A DNA stretch of 40,214 nucleotides from Sphingomonadales bacterium (GTDB lineage Bacteria; Pseudomonadota; Alphaproteobacteria; Sphingomonadales; Sphingomonadaceae), in contig JAIXOE010000046.1 in assembly GCA_027486895.1 (NCBI GenBank), forward strand, positions 1 to 40,214. Direction: 5' to 3'. The position numbers and the translations under genes were made by a program. How positions within the stretch are numbered: the stretch's first letter is position 1; each line of letters opens with the position of its first letter. A model generated the notes under the pieces. That model was not told the DNA's origin. It did no database searches and saw only the letters and a list, made by a program, of their open reading frames with translations. Shown piece after piece: positions 5,628 to 40,214 of the stretch.

Positions 5628-6410
5628 GTGCGAAACCTGTTATCCACTTTGCTGCTCGTCGCTGCCCCTGCTTCGGCGCAACCATTGCCGACGCTGAACG
5701 AAGTGCAGTTTGATGAATGCCTGAAGCTCGCTGGCACTGACCCTGCATCTGCTGTCACAGAGGCAAGCTTATGGGCGCAACAAGGGGGTGGTTATCTTGC
5801 GCGCGCCTGTCATGGCTATGCGCTTGCGACCGACTTTAAATTCGACCTTGCGATACCGATGCTGACTGAGGCTGCAAAATTAGCCGAGGAGAAGGGTGAT
5901 ACCCGCGCCGCACGTTTCTGGGCGCAGGCAGGCAATGCCGCGATCGCAGCGGACCAGCCAGACGCTGCGCTCGACGCCTTAAACAAGGCGCTGGCGTCGC
6001 AAAATCTGGAAAGTGCCGAGCGCGCCGATAGCGAAGTCGATCGTGCGCGCGCTTTGGTTGCGCTGGGAAGACCGGCAGATGCTGAAGCCGCGCTGACGAG
6101 CGCGCGGCAGTTATCTCCGGAAAATGGAACGGCATGGTTGTTATCGGCGACATTGGCGCGGCGGATGAACAAGCTGCCCGACGCCTTAACCTTTATCCAG
6201 ACGTCAGCGGCGCTTCTGCCGCGCGATGCAGCCGTCGCATTGGAGGCAGGCAATATCGCCGTCGCCGCGGGTGACGAGGGCGCTGCCCGCAAACAATGGG
6301 AGCAGACCATCGCTATCGCGCCCAACAGCCGTCAGGCAGCGACCGCGACGGCGCAACTGGCAGCATTGGCCGCCAGTGCACCGCCGTCTACCGAGCCTCA
6401 ATCAAGATAA
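5628..6410 (+). CDS. Secreted or periplasmic tetratricopeptide-repeat protein
   Basis: A 260-residue protein starting at GTG 5628, with CGGAG at 5618-5622 as its ribosome binding site. The N-terminus is a signal peptide (LLSTLLLVAAPASAQP). The rest is alpha-helical, Ala-rich and built of TPR-type helix pairs, for example NAAIAADQPDAALDALNKAL and AGNIAVAAGDEGAARKQWEQTIAIAPNSRQA. TPR proteins are scaffolds, and no partner can be named. Its 3' end overlaps the convergent SIMPL gene by 13 nt, so the two transcripts are antisense at their ends. Confidence 0.8.
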   Translation: MRNLLSTLLLVAAPASAQPLPTLNEVQFDECLKLAGTDPASAVTEASLWAQQGGGYLARACHGYALATDFKFDLAIPMLTEAAKLAEEKGDTRAARFWAQAGNAAIAADQPDAALDALNKALASQNLESAERADSEVDRARALVALGRPADAEAALTSARQLSPENGTAWLLSATLARRMNKLPDALTFIQTSAALLPRDAAVALEAGNIAVAAGDEGAARKQWEQTIAIAPNSRQAATATAQLAALAASAPPSTEPQSR

Positions 6411-22858: not shown

Positions 22859-23267
22859 TGCTGTTTCAAGGGGGTTCGACAGGGCTCGATTAACCCCTCA
22901 AATGCCCCCAAAATCCGACTTTTCGGGGACATTCTTGCAAACTGCTACCCCGCTTCTTTTCGCCCGATTTAGCTGCGACTTTATCCCTCTTGCTTCCACA
23001 GTGCTGACACAAATTGGCCGGCTGATTCGAGTAAATTCTCGGGAAGTCTTCGATCGCGACCTTCTGATGATAGAGGCGCCTACGATCTTTCACGATAGAT
23101 CACGATTAAATCTTTAATTTCAACATTTTAGTTGACTTACCTTCCACCTATTTGCACGTCCGGTGTCGACGAAGGCAAAGCCAATCGCACCTTTTTGGGC
23201 CGCCAACCATGAAGATCGCGGGAGGTCAGCTGGAGCCACAAATCCGAGCCATGAAAACGACGTTCAA
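22859..23267. other. Island left end between attachment site and integrase
   Basis: About 410 nt with no convincing gene. Two short inverted repeats lie near the junction: AGGGG-GTT with AACCCCT (22869-22898), and CCCC-AAAA with TTTT-C-GGGG (22906-22928). They could be recombinase arm or excisionase sites. An AT-rich tract follows and probably holds the integrase promoter. An in-frame GTG at 23163 could extend the integrase but has no ribosome binding site. Confidence 0.5.
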
Positions 23268-24425
23268 ATGCCCAAACTAATCAAACGCACAGTGGAAGCT
23301 GCTGGCCCGAGGCCAAAGGAATATTATCTGTGGGACGAGGATATTCCAGGCTTAGGGCTTCGAGTTCTGCCGTCCGGCCGAAAGCAATACATCATCCAAT
23401 ATCGTGCCGGCCGCAGGTCGCGCCGCCTATCCCTTGGCCCAAGCACAATCCTGACGCCTGAACAGGCAAGAACACGGGCCCTTGCAGTTCTAGCAGATGC
23501 CCTAGGAGGCAAAGACCCGGCCGCTGATCGCGACGCGTTACGTAAGGCTCCGAATGTCAGAGACTTGGCAAAGCGATTTGACGAGCAACACATTAGTCTC
23601 AGGATCAAAGCGAGCACCGCAAAAGAGTATCGACGTTCCTTGGAAAAATTCATTTCGCCCAAACTTGGTGCAATGTTGGTTACGCAAGTTACGCGCGCGG
23701 ACATCGCCAATTTTCATCATGACCTGAGACACGTCCCCTACCAAGCCAATCGCTGCCTCGAAATCATCTCCAAGATGTTCAACCTTGCTGAGCTCTGGGG
23801 GCTCCGACCGGACGGCAGCAACCCGCGTAGGCTGATCCAGAAATATCCTGAAGTGAAGCGGGAGCGGTTCCTCAGCCTTGATGAAATCAAGCGGCTGGGA
23901 AGTGTTCTGCGTGAGATTGAAACGGAAGGTAGGGAGATGCCCTCCGCGATCCTTGCCATTAGGCTACTGCTTTATACCGGCTGCCGCTTGAACGAGATCA
24001 TGACCCTGAAATGGGAATATGTCGATCTGGAGGCCGCCATACTCCACCTTCCAGATTCAAAAACCGGCGCGAAAAAGGTTTATCTGGGCAAGCCCGCTGT
24101 CAAACTCTTAGAGGAGGCACCTGCCATTGTCGGCAATCCTTGGGTCATAACGGGCGCTCTGCCCGGCGCGCGGCTTACAGACCTTCAGCCCTTCTGGCAG
24201 CGGGTTCGAGCAAGAGCTGGACTTGAGGGGGTTCGCATTCACGATCTGCGCCACACATTCGCGTCGACCGCAGTTGCGGCAGGTCACTCGCTTCCGATCA
24301 TCGGCAAGCTTCTGGGGCACACACAAGTGCAGACGACAGCGCGTTACGCGCATCTTGCGGCTAGCCCGGCAATGATCGCTGCGGATTCAATTACGAGCGT
24401 ACTGGATCAGGCTTTGGCAAGTTGA
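23268..24425 (+). CDS. Tyrosine recombinase (P4-type integrase)
   Basis: A 385-residue integrase. It has an N-terminal DUF4102-like arm-binding domain (PKLIKRTVEAA, DIPGLGLRVLPSGRKQYIIQYR), a SAM-like core-binding domain, and a catalytic domain with the full set Arg240 (YTGCRLNE), His325-x-x-Arg328 (HDLRH), His351 (LLGHT) and nucleophile Tyr360 (ARYAHL). It inserts and excises DNA at a tRNA attachment site, here the adjacent tRNA-fMet fragment. ATG 23268 is chosen because MPKL...KRTV is the common start of the family. No ribosome binding site is obvious. All active-site residues are present, so the gene looks functional. Confidence 0.93.
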   Translation: MPKLIKRTVEAAGPRPKEYYLWDEDIPGLGLRVLPSGRKQYIIQYRAGRRSRRLSLGPSTILTPEQARTRALAVLADALGGKDPAADRDALRKAPNVRDLAKRFDEQHISLRIKASTAKEYRRSLEKFISPKLGAMLVTQVTRADIANFHHDLRHVPYQANRCLEIISKMFNLAELWGLRPDGSNPRRLIQKYPEVKRERFLSLDEIKRLGSVLREIETEGREMPSAILAIRLLLYTGCRLNEIMTLKWEYVDLEAAILHLPDSKTGAKKVYLGKPAVKLLEEAPAIVGNPWVITGALPGARLTDLQPFWQRVRARAGLEGVRIHDLRHTFASTAVAAGHSLPIIGKLLGHTQVQTTARYAHLAASPAMIAADSITSVLDQALAS

Positions 24426-26653: not shown

Positions 26654-27028
26654 ATGTCCATGGAGACTAACGATCCAGACATGCCTGACGCTGCTGTTAC
26701 ACACATCAGCCAGATGCTGATCCTTGCCAAAAGCAAGCATCAAGAGGCCATCACGTTGCTAGGCATACCTGATCGCAATGCTTTGCCTCGACTGCGAGAA
26801 GTTCTCAGATTGCTTAATGAGGTTGAGCTTCTGGCGGATGACGCAGCTACCTACGTTGAGGCTGGAATGATTAAGGCGGCCATTAAGGACCTGCATTTTC
26901 AGCAGGCAGCCGTTCAAGCAGCTATTATCCGGCTAGAAAACGTTAAGGCGCAAGCGCCATGGAAAACGCCGTGGCCATGGATAACCCTATTTTTTCTGTG
27001 CATGATGATCATGCAGGTCTGGGCCTAG
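26654..27028 (+). CDS. Unknown tail-anchored small protein
   Basis: A 124-residue protein that I do not recognise. It is mostly helical (LREVLRLLNEVELLADDAATYVEAGMIKAAIKDLHFQQAAVQAAIIRLENVKA reads as two long amphipathic helices) and ends with one membrane helix, WPWITLFFLCMMIMQVWA, so it is probably tail-anchored with a cytosolic coiled-coil-like part. A second ATG lies at 26660. GGGATAA precedes the start. It stands alone; the 258 nt that follow hold no gene that I can support. Confidence 0.55.
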   Translation: MSMETNDPDMPDAAVTHISQMLILAKSKHQEAITLLGIPDRNALPRLREVLRLLNEVELLADDAATYVEAGMIKAAIKDLHFQQAAVQAAIIRLENVKAQAPWKTPWPWITLFFLCMMIMQVWA

Positions 27029-32089: not shown

Positions 32090-32641
32090 TTAAGAGAGCC
32101 AACGATCTAGCAGGGCATTCACATAACCGTGATCCAACATGTGTCCCGCATCAGGAACTATGTTGACGCTGATTCCTGTCAAACGACCGAACTCAGACAG
32201 TCGTTCTGACGGGCATTGCCAATCGTTCGCGCCAACATGGATTTCGCAGTGCTCGGGAACAACCAACTCCCTCAATCTTGCGAGAGCCATTAGGCTGTCG
32301 GCGTAAGGCGGAGCAAAACCCAACTTACCGAGCGACGACTGCTTAACTTCGCCGATCACTGGGGACAGCAAGAGCACTTTGCCTAGCAAGGGAGGCATCA
32401 GCGCTTGGGCAAATAGGAATAAATATGCCCCGTATGAATTTGCGACCACAAGCGCATCCTTTTCACAAAATTCAGCTTGTAAGTCATTGGCAATGGCCTG
32501 AGCCTGAAAAGGGAGAGACAGTTTTGCGAAATCGCCAAGTGTCTCTCGGCCACTCAAACGATAACCTCTAGCTTTGAGTTCTAGGCCAAGGCCGGCATTC
32601 AAACGCCCCCCTCGGCCTGGCAATAAATAGATAGACCTCAA
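32090..32641 (-). CDS. Small alpha/beta-hydrolase-like protein
   Basis: A 183-residue protein resembling the RBBP9/YdeN type of small serine hydrolases. The first strand is IYLLPGRGG and the nucleophile elbow is ANSYG (Ser69, with Ala replacing the first Gly of GxSxG). Asp140 lies in HVGANDWQCP and His167 in PDAGHMLDHG, so a triad is possible. Activity is uncertain. No ATG exists at the start; TTG 32641 is used because GGAG lies 8 nt upstream. The gene stands apart from its neighbours by 130-190 nt. Confidence 0.65.
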   Translation of the reverse strand: MRSIYLLPGRGGRLNAGLGLELKARGYRLSGRETLGDFAKLSLPFQAQAIANDLQAEFCEKDALVVANSYGAYLFLFAQALMPPLLGKVLLLSPVIGEVKQSSLGKLGFAPPYADSLMALARLRELVVPEHCEIHVGANDWQCPSERLSEFGRLTGISVNIVPDAGHMLDHGYVNALLDRWLS

Positions 32642-35052: not shown

Positions 35053-35751
35053 TTAAATCATCATTCCTGCGGCCCATCGCGGAACGACGTCCGTGGCATT
35101 GCCAATCTGGCAGTCGTCGAAAACCGCGCCGCCACCGTGCAATTCCAAGTTTACTAGAACTGTTCTGGCGCCGAAAGAATTAGCCATTTGCACAAAATCC
35201 GCAGCTGGATAAACTTGGCCTGATGTTCCTATGGCAACGAACACGTCGCAAGCTCTCAGCGCTTCATAGATTTTCGGCAGGCTGCGGGGGGTCTCACCAA
35301 AAAACACAATGTCAGGGCGTAGCATGTCCCGTCCACACGACGGACACTCTCGGTCATCTTCCAGCGCATTAAATCTCGGCCCATGATAGCCACAGTCAAT
35401 GCAGTAGGTTGAATTCAGCGCGCCATGCATGTGTATAAGATTATGTGATCCAGCGCGCTCGTGAAGATCGTCGACGTTCTGCGTGACAAGAAGAAAGTCG
35501 CCTCGTCTATGCTCCTGCCAGAAGCCTTCAAGGTCCGCCAGCGCCAGATGGGCCGCATTCGGCTGAGCCTGGGTAGCAAGCAATTTTCGCTCATCGTAAA
35601 ATTGGCAAACACGGTCGGGTGCCCGAGCAAACGCCCCAGGCGTGCATACATCTTCGATCTGGTAGCCGTCCCAAAGCCCCGCTTCAGCCCGAAAAGTTTC
35701 CAGTCCACTCTCGGCCGATATTCCCGCTCCTGTCAGGATCACAATGTTCAT
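35053..35751 (-). CDS. Sir2 family NAD-dependent protein deacylase (CobB type)
   Basis: A 232-residue sirtuin with all key features: NAD motif GAGISAESG from residue 8, TQNVDDLHERAG at 90-101, catalytic His109 (HMHGAL), four zinc Cys (117, 120, 136, 139) and GTSG at 175-178. Tyr52-x-x-Arg55 (FYDER) matches the pair that gives CobB/SIRT5 desuccinylase preference. It is a free-standing enzyme and lacks the effector fusions of known Sir2 defence systems. It starts 6 nt after the Sel1 stop, so the two are coupled. Its place in the island suggests regulation of or by its neighbours. Confidence 0.92.
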   Translation of the reverse strand: MNIVILTGAGISAESGLETFRAEAGLWDGYQIEDVCTPGAFARAPDRVCQFYDERKLLATQAQPNAAHLALADLEGFWQEHRRGDFLLVTQNVDDLHERAGSHNLIHMHGALNSTYCIDCGYHGPRFNALEDDRECPSCGRDMLRPDIVFFGETPRSLPKIYEALRACDVFVAIGTSGQVYPAADFVQMANSFGARTVLVNLELHGGGAVFDDCQIGNATDVVPRWAAGMMI

Positions 35752-38264: not shown

Positions 38265-38810
38265 ATGGCCCTTGAACTACACCACCCTCTATCGCTTTGG
38301 AGGGCACGAGACGCAGCGATTGGTGGCCTGCAAAGCGGTGTAACGGACACCGCAGCCGAACGGGAAATAGAGACCTGGGTGGTCGAACATGGCGAGGCTG
38401 CGTTTTACGAGTTTGGTGACGCCGCGCTAGGAACGATGCATTACTTGGAAGCCGAAGAATCAGAAGTTAGAGATCGACTCGAAATCAACCCAGAAACAGC
38501 GGTCACCGACGAGGATCGTGCGGCCTATTTGCGCCTGAAAGTCGAAGATGCCCGGGCAGAGTTTTATGGACCTTTCCTCGAGGGTTACCCGATCTCAGAT
38601 TGTCTTGGAAACATTGCAGTCTTGGCTGCAAAGTCATACTGTTGCGGCCAAGGCGGCTGGGAGTTCGAATGGTTTGGCTTATTCCCAACGCGAGAAGCCG
38701 CCATCAAAAGAGCGGTTGATCAAGGCTTCTTCATTAACAGCTGGGTGACGGAGGGCAAGCGGATGGATGAGCACACAGATCAGGAGTTAATCGCGTTTAT
38801 CATTGGCTAG
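38265..38810 (+). CDS. Unknown 181-residue protein
   Basis: Not recognised. The N-terminal half is helical and acidic (EREIETWVVEHGEAAFYEFGDAALG, AEESEVRDRLEINPETAVTDEDRAAYLRLKVEDARAEF). The C-terminal half has a Cys pair in KSYCCGQGGWEFEWFGLFPTREAAIKRAVDQGFFINSW. No signal or membrane segment is seen. CAGGAG precedes the ATG. It is transcribed divergently from the Sel1 gene, with 164 nt between them. Confidence 0.65.
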   Translation: MALELHHPLSLWRARDAAIGGLQSGVTDTAAEREIETWVVEHGEAAFYEFGDAALGTMHYLEAEESEVRDRLEINPETAVTDEDRAAYLRLKVEDARAEFYGPFLEGYPISDCLGNIAVLAAKSYCCGQGGWEFEWFGLFPTREAAIKRAVDQGFFINSWVTEGKRMDEHTDQELIAFIIG

Positions 38811-38893
38811 AGATTTTACAGGCGCTGACCCGTATTCACAATCTATTGCGTACGCCATCGAAAAAACGTAAGTGTCGAACGTCATCAAGAGTT

Positions 38894-39009
38894 GGGTCGA
38901 CACCCACGCCGACCTGCCGAACCGGGCAAGGTGGTTTTGCGAAAGCAGATGTGGCTCTTCGGAGCAACGAAGCGGAAGTCGTGTCGACCCTCCGTATGGA
39001 GGTTTTTTT
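38894..39009 (+). ncRNA. Structured leader RNA ahead of the DUF3293 gene
   Basis: GGGTCGACAC (38894-38903) pairs perfectly with GTGTCGACCC (38981-38990). Within the 77 enclosed nt lie three hairpins: ACCTGCC with GGC-A-AGGT, a GC-GAAA-GC tetraloop, and GCTC-TTCG-GAGC. The long stem runs straight into a terminator (38989-39009) that shares 2 nt with it. The layout is that of a riboswitch or attenuated leader, or a small RNA ending at the terminator. I cannot match it to a named class. Confidence 0.6.
38989..39009 (+). terminator. Terminator whose 3' arm is the ribosome binding site of the next gene
   Basis: CCTCC and GGAGG pair around a GTAT loop and are followed by seven T, directly before ATG 39010. 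GGAGG is also the Shine-Dalgarno of the DUF3293 gene, so forming the hairpin would block both transcription and translation. Confidence 0.7.
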
Positions 39010-39438
39010 ATGCCTGTTTCTGAAGTGCCGGCAGAACTGATCGAGGCCTACAAGCGAACGCATTATCTGGTGCACACCAAAGACGGGATCCTCGCACTTC
39101 GTGTCGGCCAGCCGTCCAAGGAATTGGCTAATCTGATCCATGCAGCACGAGCAGTCGGCGGTGCATTCATAACGGCTGAAAATCCTTTCAGCGAGGCTCT
39201 TGCCGCAGACGAGAACAAGGCGCGACAGGCTCTCCTTCGCGAAGATTTGGTTGGCCTTGGGGCGGTGGTTATCGACGGGGCTGGTCAGGGCGATGATCCC
39301 AGTTGGCCCGCCGAGGCCAGCTATGCGGCGATTGGCATCAGCCGGGAGCAGGCGTGTGACCTGGGCCGCAAATATCAGCAAAACGCGATCGTCTGGTTCG
39401 TTGCTGGCGGAACGCCCGAGTTAATCGTGCTCCGCTGA
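39010..39438 (+). CDS. DUF3293 domain protein
   Basis: A 142-residue protein with the DUF3293 pattern: LIEAYKRTHYLVHTKDGILALRVGQPS, then GGAFITAENPFSEALAADENKARQALLREDL, SYAAIGISREQACDLGRKYQQNAIVWF and a final TPELIVLR. The function of the family is unknown. ATG 39010 is set by GGAGG at 38998-39002. The frame stays open further upstream, but that part overlaps the folded RNA and has no family similarity. Expression is probably controlled by the leader and terminator. Confidence 0.75.
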   Translation: MPVSEVPAELIEAYKRTHYLVHTKDGILALRVGQPSKELANLIHAARAVGGAFITAENPFSEALAADENKARQALLREDLVGLGAVVIDGAGQGDDPSWPAEASYAAIGISREQACDLGRKYQQNAIVWFVAGGTPELIVLR

Positions 39439-39461
39439 TTTTCTTAGATAAGGATTAAGAG

Positions 39462-40034
39462 ATGAAAAAAATTTCGCTGATGTCCTGGTCTGACTCCAAC
39501 ATGGCCGGAGACGACTGGACCTGGTTTATCAACCTTACCGTTCGCAAAAACGGTACTTACTCAATCGGCGCCATGCAAACCGCTGTGGATGGTCCGACAT
39601 TCAGGCCGCCGTCCATTTATCCATTGCGCAAAGGCCGGCAAGTTAGAGAGGCTATTGAGCAATTGTTTCTTGATGACCCTCTGTCCGTCGAAGAAATTGA
39701 TTGGTCAGAAATCATTGATGTTCTCACAAATCATTTACCCAAACTGGCGCATGAGATAGAGCAGTCGTTCATTGAGGACTCAATCGCCGATGAGGCGAGC
39801 GAGCGTGAATACGAGGCGCAGAAAAAGCTCGACGCCCCCATCAACGACTGCGTCGATCAAGCCCGATGGCCTTTAAGCCCCATGAGCCATCACATCGGAA
39901 ACCAAATGGATAATGCCAAACGCCGCAAAAGGGTCTTTGACTATGTACGCGACTATTATGCAAAACATAGCCGGTTCCCAGCTGGTAGTCATACCTTGCA
40001 CCAAGACTTCAGGGTCCAATTTCCTGAGGATTGA
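39462..40034 (+). CDS. Unknown 190-residue protein at the island's right end
   Basis: Not recognised. It begins MKKISLMSWSDSNMAGDDW and continues with a small beta-rich part (WFINLTVRKNGTYSIGAMQ), an acidic helical middle (EIEQSFIEDSIADEASEREYEAQKKLD) and a basic C-terminus (DNAKRRKRVFDYVRDYYAKHSRFPAG) that could bind nucleic acid or be a linker. Its ribosome binding site, AAGGATTAAGAG, lies just before the ATG. It starts 23 nt after the DUF3293 gene and may share its transcript. Confidence 0.6.
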   Translation: MKKISLMSWSDSNMAGDDWTWFINLTVRKNGTYSIGAMQTAVDGPTFRPPSIYPLRKGRQVREAIEQLFLDDPLSVEEIDWSEIIDVLTNHLPKLAHEIEQSFIEDSIADEASEREYEAQKKLDAPINDCVDQARWPLSPMSHHIGNQMDNAKRRKRVFDYVRDYYAKHSRFPAGSHTLHQDFRVQFPED

Positions 40035-40093
40035 GTAGAAAAAAGGTTTCCAACAAACCAGTGATCTTTTGATGGTCTGGCCCACCCTACGGG

Positions 40094-40152
40094 CTGGGGG
40101 GATTTGTTCCTGATTGCCACCCCCGACGTCGTCGAAATGGCTAAAACCGGAG
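40094..40152 (+). promoter_or_regulatory. SAM-II-type riboswitch ahead of metK
   Basis: An H-type pseudoknot pattern. P1 is GGGGG (40096-40100) with CCCCC (40120-40124). The loop begins GATTTG and contains ATTGC, and the 3' part holds GGCTAAAA; these are the conserved SAM-II elements. The second helix can form from GCC (40116-40118) with GGC (40139-40141) and TTCC (40107-40110) with GGAG (40149-40152). GGAG is the metK ribosome binding site, so bound S-adenosylmethionine would block translation. This class is typical of alphaproteobacterial methionine/SAM genes. The call is from motif matching by eye. Confidence 0.75.
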
Positions 40153-40158
40153 ACTACC

Positions 40159-40214
40159 ATGTCTGTTTTCAATGGCCTGTTCACCTCGGAATCCGTATCT
40201 GCTGGACACCCCGA
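40159..40214 (+). CDS. metK: S-adenosylmethionine synthetase, N-terminus only
   Basis: The first 18 codons read MSVFNGLFTSESVSAGHP, which is the MetK N-terminus (FTSESVSAGHPDK) carrying the His of the ATP site. MetK makes S-adenosylmethionine from methionine and ATP. GGAG at 40149-40152 is its ribosome binding site and part of the SAM-II-type riboswitch. The gene runs off the window. It is a core gene, so the island should end upstream of it. Confidence 0.93.
   Translation, partial: MSVFNGLFTSESVSAGHP

Follow-up and report, generated by a model that had tools for sequence, protein, structure and literature searches.

The DUF3293 gene in this 40,214-nucleotide stretch of Sphingomonadales DNA (the whole stretch is called the window here) is probably controlled by a SAM-I/IV riboswitch that acts as an OFF switch when bound to SAM, within a mobile cassette of the order DUF3293, (ORF), metK. 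We give this reading, which is drawn from sequence comparison and folding, a probability of about 80%.

The aptamer was identified with cmscan against Rfam 15 at gathering thresholds. The RF01725 match scores 61.6 bits against a cut-off of 41.1 and covers positions 1-99 of the 99-position model (E 5.8e-8 for the whole window). It is the single Rfam match in the window at these thresholds, and between 38700 and 39100 no other Rfam family appeared at E values up to 10. A sequence-only reading of the same DNA had described an unassigned structured RNA of no named class, with the architecture of a riboswitch, attenuator or small RNA. The elements that it listed all lie where it placed them, and the riboswitch architecture is supported by the SAM-I/IV match. 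The statement that no named class fits is contradicted by this full-length match above threshold, and the Infernal search of Rfam, which that reading had itself proposed as a check, returned a known family, which removes the label 'unassigned'. The conserved element begins at 38877, 17 nt before the start given there. Judged by its alignment, the structured RNA is an ordinary member of the SAM-I/IV riboswitch class. Like the class (RF01725; PMC2864571), the window has a full-length aptamer over the gathering score with P1, P2, P3, P5 and the 3′ tail; it differs in its DUF3293 target and in a G at one core position.

The window's own genome holds one RF01725 match, that of the window. Under stricter filters, which lose weak matches, RF01725 was found in 2 of 41 genomes (own and relatives), 35 of 385 from the class and 53 of 397 from the family. 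Genes after the other copies include metA-, metF- and OmpW-like genes and small unknown proteins (names by eye). In a genus-mate (L002) the SAM-I/IV element is followed by a different ORF, not DUF3293; positions 1-1248 of that locus carry ORFs resembling the SIR2, hydrolase-like and 124-aa ORFs of the window (26654-27028, 32090-32641, 35053-35751), and by eye the two sets are related island pieces. DNA that is 74% similar to the SAM-I/IV leader of the window was also seen on the conjugative Acidiphilium plasmid pACRY04 (L106, 1501-1598), just 5′ of a GNAT acetyltransferase gene.

Of the SAM-I/IV matches, 67 sequences with their flanks were compared, namely those listed as loci together with three from plasmids. 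The core of the window reads CGACC (38910-38914) against CAACC in 66 of 67, the window alone deviating; the remaining core motifs are present in its alignment to the consensus. We take the position of G38911 to be A45 by SAM-I numbering. Residues 44-47 of SAM-I lie within 5 Å of SAM, according to the available text of PMC6890682. From the sequence, the A-to-G change may weaken or alter binding, or may be a sequence error. It is unlikely, in our view, that the window copy has lost or changed its ligand specificity, with the change in the P3 internal loop blocking normal SAM binding and DUF3293 being constitutive or answering to another ligand. Such a shift has a precedent in the available part of PMC10853860, in which SAM-I variants had become spermidine sensors through changes to J1/2 and to the internal loop of P3, and CGACC is unique to the window (1 of 67). 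However, this is a single sequence that could contain an error, its bit score is well above the cut-off, and L003 and L007 retain the A.

The elements of the leader and its surroundings are collected in Table 1. The two arms of the alternative stem pair perfectly over 10 bp and enclose 77 nt, and C38989 and C38990 are common to the 3′ end of this stem and the start of the CCTCC anti-Shine-Dalgarno. The T7 run (39003-39009) directly abuts the ATG at 39010, and the GGAGG Shine-Dalgarno stands 7 nt 5′ of it. In relatives the distal hairpin occurs with other loops, and its stem is altered in L005. By analogy with the riboswitch class, the 3′ tail could pair with the P3 loop, and by eye the P3-loop CCG of the window is complementary to CGG at 38973-38975 (PK-2).

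Folding of 38894-39009 gives -48.0 kcal/mol (z -2.64; 3 of 200 shuffles do at least as well), and the longer 38877-39009 a z of only -1.98, with 7 of 200 shuffles at least as stable. Among 2000 dinucleotide shuffles of these 116 nt, 11 contain a perfect Watson-Crick stem of at least 10 bp. Terminator-like sites in 38600-40214 number four, against 1.9 ± 1.4 in shuffles, a scan that is weak by itself. The leader elements exceed chance, though not hugely.

Table 1. Features of the leader, the cassette and the surrounding mobile region, in window coordinates
Feature	Position	Strand	Remarks
Tyrosine integrase	23163-24425	+	PF00589, 1.6e-21; sign of mobile region
SAM-I/IV aptamer (RF01725)	38877-38981	+	cmscan
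Aptamer P1	38883-38886 / 38948-38951		CATC / GATG
Aptamer P2	within 38894-38905
Aptamer P3	38907-38934		bulged hairpin
Core variant G38911	38911	+	A in the other 66 of 67 SAM-I/IV sequences compared
P4-like stem	38935-38947		contains GCGAAAGC
P5	38954-38965		GCTC-TTCG-GAGC
Aptamer 3′ tail	38972-38978		GCGGAAG
Alternative (ligand-free) stem, 5′ arm	38894-38903	+	GGGTCGACAC; overlaps aptamer P2
Alternative stem, 3′ arm	38981-38990	+	GTGTCGACCC
Terminator-like, Shine-Dalgarno-sequestering hairpin and T7	38989-39009	+	CCTCC 38989-38993, GTAT, GGAGG 38998-39002
DUF3293 gene, 142 aa	39010-39438	+	PF11697, 6.4e-20
190-aa ORF between DUF3293 and metK	39462-40034	+
SAM-II/SAM-V-like metK leader	40077-40158	+
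metK leader P1	G-run from 40096 with 40120-40124
metK leader pseudoknot	40116-40118 with 40139-40141
metK leader small hairpin	40125-40127 / 40131-40133
metK leader Shine-Dalgarno	40149-40152		GGAG
Second metK (SAM synthetase), first 18 codons	40159-40214	+	contig ends within

The 10-bp stem excludes P1 and P2, since it takes the P2 arm and a strand 3′ of the aptamer. The sequence-only reading had made this stem the frame of the structured RNA. The stem itself is present, but the consensus alignment and folding rule it out as P1 and as the scaffold of the aptamer, and it resembles the alternative fold of the ligand-free state. The competition proposed there between the long stem and the terminator/Shine-Dalgarno hairpin is supported, with two C's shared between them. 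In the window the alternative stem has an energy of -50.1 kcal/mol and the aptamer with hairpin -43.5 kcal/mol, a gap that ligand binding could bridge. A compromise fold, with an 8-bp stem and the full hairpin, reaches -47.4 kcal/mol at a cost of 2.7, and in the ligand-free ensemble the inner pair of the hairpin has a probability of 0.04. When growing prefixes of the leader were folded, P2 and P3 were kept up to 38985 and the alternative stem appeared from 38988; prefixes ending at 38970-38985 had a P1-like helix in another register and that ending at 38960 a different outer helix, the exact P1 not being formed.

Minimum-energy structures were computed for six relatives. Those of L003, L005 and L007 contain P2, P3 and an intact hairpin, that of L004 the alternative stem and a hairpin of 4 bp, and those of L072 and L074 a shortened alternative stem beside the hairpin. 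These folds suggest that the two states lie close, as in a switch, the stem excluding the hairpin only in part. The contrast between ON and OFF may be small, because only 2 of the 5 hairpin pairs are lost to the stem, the compromise fold is cheap, and L072 and L074 combine both elements.

The alternative stem was compared across 32 loci in which a CCTCC-like anchor separates aptamer and gene, leaving out 35 without one, and the arms were set by the anchor and not by pairing. Own arms form 6.53 Watson-Crick pairs on average against 5.05 when swapped, which 0 of 20000 permutations reach. Over the 32 rows (27 distinct) 80.7% of the stem cells pair (0 of 500 shuffles); 29 cells carry two-sided changes where 11.4 ± 3.6 would be expected (0 of 500), covariation is 0.314 against 0.168 (0 of 500) and further pair types number 23 against 16.4 (1 of 500), counts in which aligner gaps in some arms favour rows such as L014 and related rows are not independent. 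The weak one of the five measures is the number of pairs with two-sided change, 7 against 4.6, reached in 24 of 500 shuffles. Sliding the stem by 1-3 columns lowers pairing to 33-47%. For L076-L104 the aptamer ends come from a motif rule and in several loci miss the true end by some nucleotides; the 32-locus comparison contains at least one misplaced arm, that of L076, which biases against the stem. Among the nine DUF3293-linked loci, pairs 4 (T-A, C-G, one T-G), 5 (C-G, T-A) and 9 (A-T, G-C, G-T) vary with compensation, and two cells are unpaired (pair 4 in L004 and pair 10 in L070). A cruder duplex comparison of 35 loci, which was weak, gave a mean of -20.2 kcal/mol with the own partner against -16.8 with swapped ones; own partners ranked anywhere from 1 to 35, many loci having no preference for theirs. 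On these alignments the evidence for the alternative stem appears good but not independent. The sequence-only reading had staked its proposal on homologous leaders with compensated stem changes: the alternative stem covaries over the 32 loci, and relatives do carry such leaders (below).

The predicted expression platform, in which the P2 arm pairs with a distal strand overlapping a Shine-Dalgarno/terminator hairpin and which is backed here by covariation, sets the window apart from the SAM-I/IV class, and no description of such a platform was found in the available parts of the literature searched. In several metA-like leaders from the family (L081-L104) the P2 loop GACGC seems by eye to be paired with a distal GCGTC before the Shine-Dalgarno region, which may be a less strict form of this platform.

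Both the downstream gene named in the sequence-only reading, DUF3293, and its placing of the leader in a mobile region agree with the protein domain matches (Table 1), the integrase lying on the same contig. A SAM-I/IV element over the cut-off stands directly upstream of DUF3293 in 4 of 7 genome-contig relatives (L003, L004, L005, L007), from Novosphingobium percolationis, Brevundimonas pishanensis, a betaproteobacterial MAG and an Erythrobacteraceae MAG. It does so too at 3 of the 7 plasmid DUF3293 loci examined among 11 matches (L070, L072, L074), on Polaromonas pPNAP04 and two Paraburkholderia megaplasmids, and in L011 a DUF3293-like gene follows SAM-I/IV. Rfam gave no SAM-I/IV in the DUF3293 loci L006, L008, L009, L069, L071, L073 and L075. 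By eye, the Paraburkholderia loci L073 and L071 hold an internally deleted and a decayed SAM-I/IV copy, respectively, with the distal hairpin kept. A 398-genome sample of the phylum contained 35 other DUF3293 matches, and 0 of the 29 listed among them as loci carry SAM-I/IV, so the link between DUF3293 and SAM-I/IV holds for a subset only. A constant association of the two is ruled out by these loci and by the seven relatives and plasmid loci without the element.

Across 61 genomes (own and relatives) DUF3293 occurs only in that of the window, as expected of an island. The gene directly after DUF3293 is metK in L003, L004 and L005, an order that thus recurs in Novosphingobium, Brevundimonas and the betaproteobacterial MAG. 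The 190-aa ORF has no Pfam, NCBIfam or PADLOC match and is absent at this place in L003, L004, L005 and L007. In L003, metK encodes all three S-AdoMet_synt domains, and the genomes of L003, L004 and L005 have two metK N-domain matches each. Queried against the window's own genome, the L003 MetK matched only the metK of contig C27, so the remainder of the cassette metK is taken to be absent from the assembly. The window (at 40214) and L007 (at 3587) end at the same metK base, with 119 identical final bases, and the two contigs carry different DUF3293 genes. This shared end looks like an assembly branch at a common stretch and suggests several cassette copies in one sample or assembly.

Near the Brevundimonas cassette, a sul1 RNA (RF03058, 59.5 bits; L004 694-755) precedes a sulfate-transporter-like ORF (by eye), and L004 also has an IS240-type transposase (5737-6387). 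The phage collection held no match to the DUF3293 gene or leader of the window (E 0.01) and IMG/VR no DUF3293 match, and a phage source of either is not supported. The fold search did, however, bring up a DUF3293 protein of an uncultured phage (A0A6J7WWE9), and many metK relatives are in IMG/VR among the matches listed. Searches of the PDB by sequence, PHROGs and NCBIfam gave no lead; a Sel1 protein had a PADLOC match to PtuA (27.1 bits, no single stretch passing).

The metK of the cassette has a candidate SAM sensor of its own. The 82 nt 5′ of it have a mean column identity of 86% over five cassette loci. This leader shares with SAM-II (RF00521, RF01726) and SAM-V (RF01826) the sequences GATTTG, TGATTGC and GCTAAA, a P1 with pseudoknot and a Shine-Dalgarno just after, which we presume to be general SAM-II/SAM-V motifs. 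It differs in an extra small covarying hairpin and in lying below every cut-off in the copies tested. The leader of the window scores 18.2 bits with RF01726 (cut-off 44) and 9.4 with RF00521 (cut-off 36); for those of L003, L004, L005, L007, L109 and L110 neither SAM-II nor SAM-V appeared at E values up to 5, and L014 and L012, at 38.6 and 35.3 bits to RF01826, do not reach its cut-off of 41. A model built from the five loci (R1), run against 36 sources, also found L014 (47.1 bits), L074 (33.3) and L020 (29.0), with L012 marginal (19.7 bits, E 0.03). Of 337 genomes from the class, three match R1: the window's own, G347 (the genome of L014) and G223, in which the match (63.9 bits) lies directly before a metK-like gene (by eye). 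Single-sequence folding is not better than in shuffles (z 0.54, 0.50 and -0.47), as may happen with a pseudoknot. Across 10 sequences, 96.9% of the cells in P1, the pseudoknot and the small hairpin are paired and 5 of 10 pairs have two-sided changes (0 of 500 shuffles), in a register chosen on the same 10 sequences.

A SAM-V/II-like motif, searched with an expression written after examples had been seen, occurs within 1300 nt after 14 of the 67 SAM-I/IV aptamers, against 1 of 67 upstream and none on the opposite strand; an ORF lies between the two motifs in 10 of the 14. In L017, L021, L025 and L027 a SAM-V-like motif lies 42-50 nt after SAM-I/IV and before an OmpW-like gene (by eye), and by sequence these appear to be adjacent tandem SAM switches. 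Tandem SAM-II/SAM-V riboswitches and two cases of SAM-II after SAM-I/IV have been reported in the accessible portion of PMC9481103, so that the pairing of SAM-I/IV with SAM-II is already known. The loci described here resemble those tandems in having two structurally different sensors, probably on one message. They differ from the cases in that portion of the paper in the ORF between the motifs in the 10 loci and in the short spacing in the four.

DUF3293 is not mentioned by name in any of 5.39 million papers. An AlphaFold model made from 8 sequences (mean pLDDT 87, pTM 0.80) has a core of strand-helix-strand-strand-helix-strand. The top two of its 347 fold matches in the PDB are both phage T3 SAM lyase complexed with SAM synthetase (7ock_K: E 0.049, probability 0.99, TM 0.46; 8bb1_E: E 0.086, probability 1.00, TM 0.47), with none of the 347 at E <= 0.001. 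Among viral predicted structures the best match is a phage DUF3293 protein, and further matches at probability 1.00 include proteins named as SAM hydrolases, X2KU68 and A0A2R2V0T3 (E 0.0018 and 0.003). At the level of sequence profiles the similarity to SAM lyases is not significant (hhalign probability 3.2%, E 0.014), the score of 20.6 standing against 20.1 for the best of 40 column-shuffled controls.

Residues N27, E68 and Q94 of the phage lyase are invariant in six phage proteins, one of them partial. In a weak alignment the T3 residues fall on N69, E102 and Q124 of DUF3293, which are conserved in 45, 43 and 45 of 45 loci, respectively. The lyase Svi3-3 holds its substrate with Glu69 and Gln104, as given in the available text of PMC7877911, and we infer that these are E68 and Q94 of T3. 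The active-site tyrosine, T3 Y57 (Tyr58 of Svi3-3), falls on I88 of the window protein in a loose part of the alignment. The SAMase of T3 binds and inactivates MetK, according to the accessible text of PMC8406200, which fits a pairing of DUF3293 with metK. DUF3293 is like the T3 lyase/MAT complex (7ock, 8bb1), as far as that text describes it, in its best fold matches and its collinear Asn, Glu and Gln, and it is encoded beside the protein that T3 SAMase binds. Unlike the lyase, it has neither significant sequence similarity nor a clear counterpart of the catalytic Tyr, and its gene is bacterial, either mobile or chromosomal, and in the window follows a SAM switch. The predicted structure and the aligned conserved residues suggest that DUF3293 is probably a SAM-binding protein of SAM-lyase/PII-like fold.

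The OFF switch would work as follows. On transcription of the leader, P2 and P3 would form first, as prefix folding predicts. With SAM bound, P1 and P2 would hold and leave 38981-38990 free, and CCTCC would pair with GGAGG; the hairpin with its T7 would then terminate transcription just 5′ of the ATG and/or hide the Shine-Dalgarno, and DUF3293 would be off. When SAM is scarce, the stem between 38894-38903 and 38981-38990 would form and break P1 and P2. Folding and covariation predict that it takes the first two C's of the anti-Shine-Dalgarno, which would reduce the hairpin to 3 bp and allow DUF3293 to be made. The metK gene has its own SAM-II/SAM-V-like element adjoining its Shine-Dalgarno, so that both genes would be derepressed as SAM falls. 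Expression at low SAM suits metK, and does not suit a DUF3293 that simply destroys SAM. Because expression is predicted at low SAM, a SAM- or MetK-binding role for DUF3293 seems likelier than that of a plain lyase, unless positive feedback is the point.

The opposite sign of control, in which the SAM-stabilised aptamer prevents the hairpin and DUF3293 is made at high SAM, would be homeostatic for a SAM-degrading enzyme, and DUF3293 may resemble SAM lyases. We consider this quite improbable: P1 and P2 cannot coexist with the covarying competitor of the hairpin, which means that SAM should promote the hairpin, the companion metK is expected to be off at high SAM, and many SAM-I riboswitches are OFF switches (PMC10853860, in its available text). 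An intrinsic terminator with chance structure upstream and no ligand, to which the modest fold z-scores (-1.98 to -2.64) and weak terminator scan would lend themselves, can practically be dismissed, being contradicted by the full-length Rfam match, by its repeat at the same place in 4 of 7 relatives and by the covariation.

Beyond the OFF switch itself, the cassette might be a mobile response to SAM depletion, a reading that we hold tentatively and consider rather doubtful. Loss of SAM, for example to a phage SAM lyase, would turn on a spare SAM synthetase and DUF3293 through two unrelated sensors, and DUF3293 would be a domesticated relative of phage SAM lyase, binding SAM or MetK and modulating or protecting the SAM supply. 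If this were true, DUF3293 would represent a branch of the SAM lyase fold that is bacterial and under riboswitch control.

The unusual part of these findings is the mobile SAM cassette and the structural lead for DUF3293, not the class of the RNA. An ordinary riboswitch here gives a functional handle on DUF3293, as the riboswitch, the adjoining metK and the modelled fold all lead to SAM. Such SAM-I/IV switches also gain an expression platform that can be tested, and G38911 provides a natural core variant for testing ligand choice. Should DUF3293 bind or cleave SAM, or bind MetK, this would be a mobile element equipped with a SAM-control module of its own that includes two SAM sensors.
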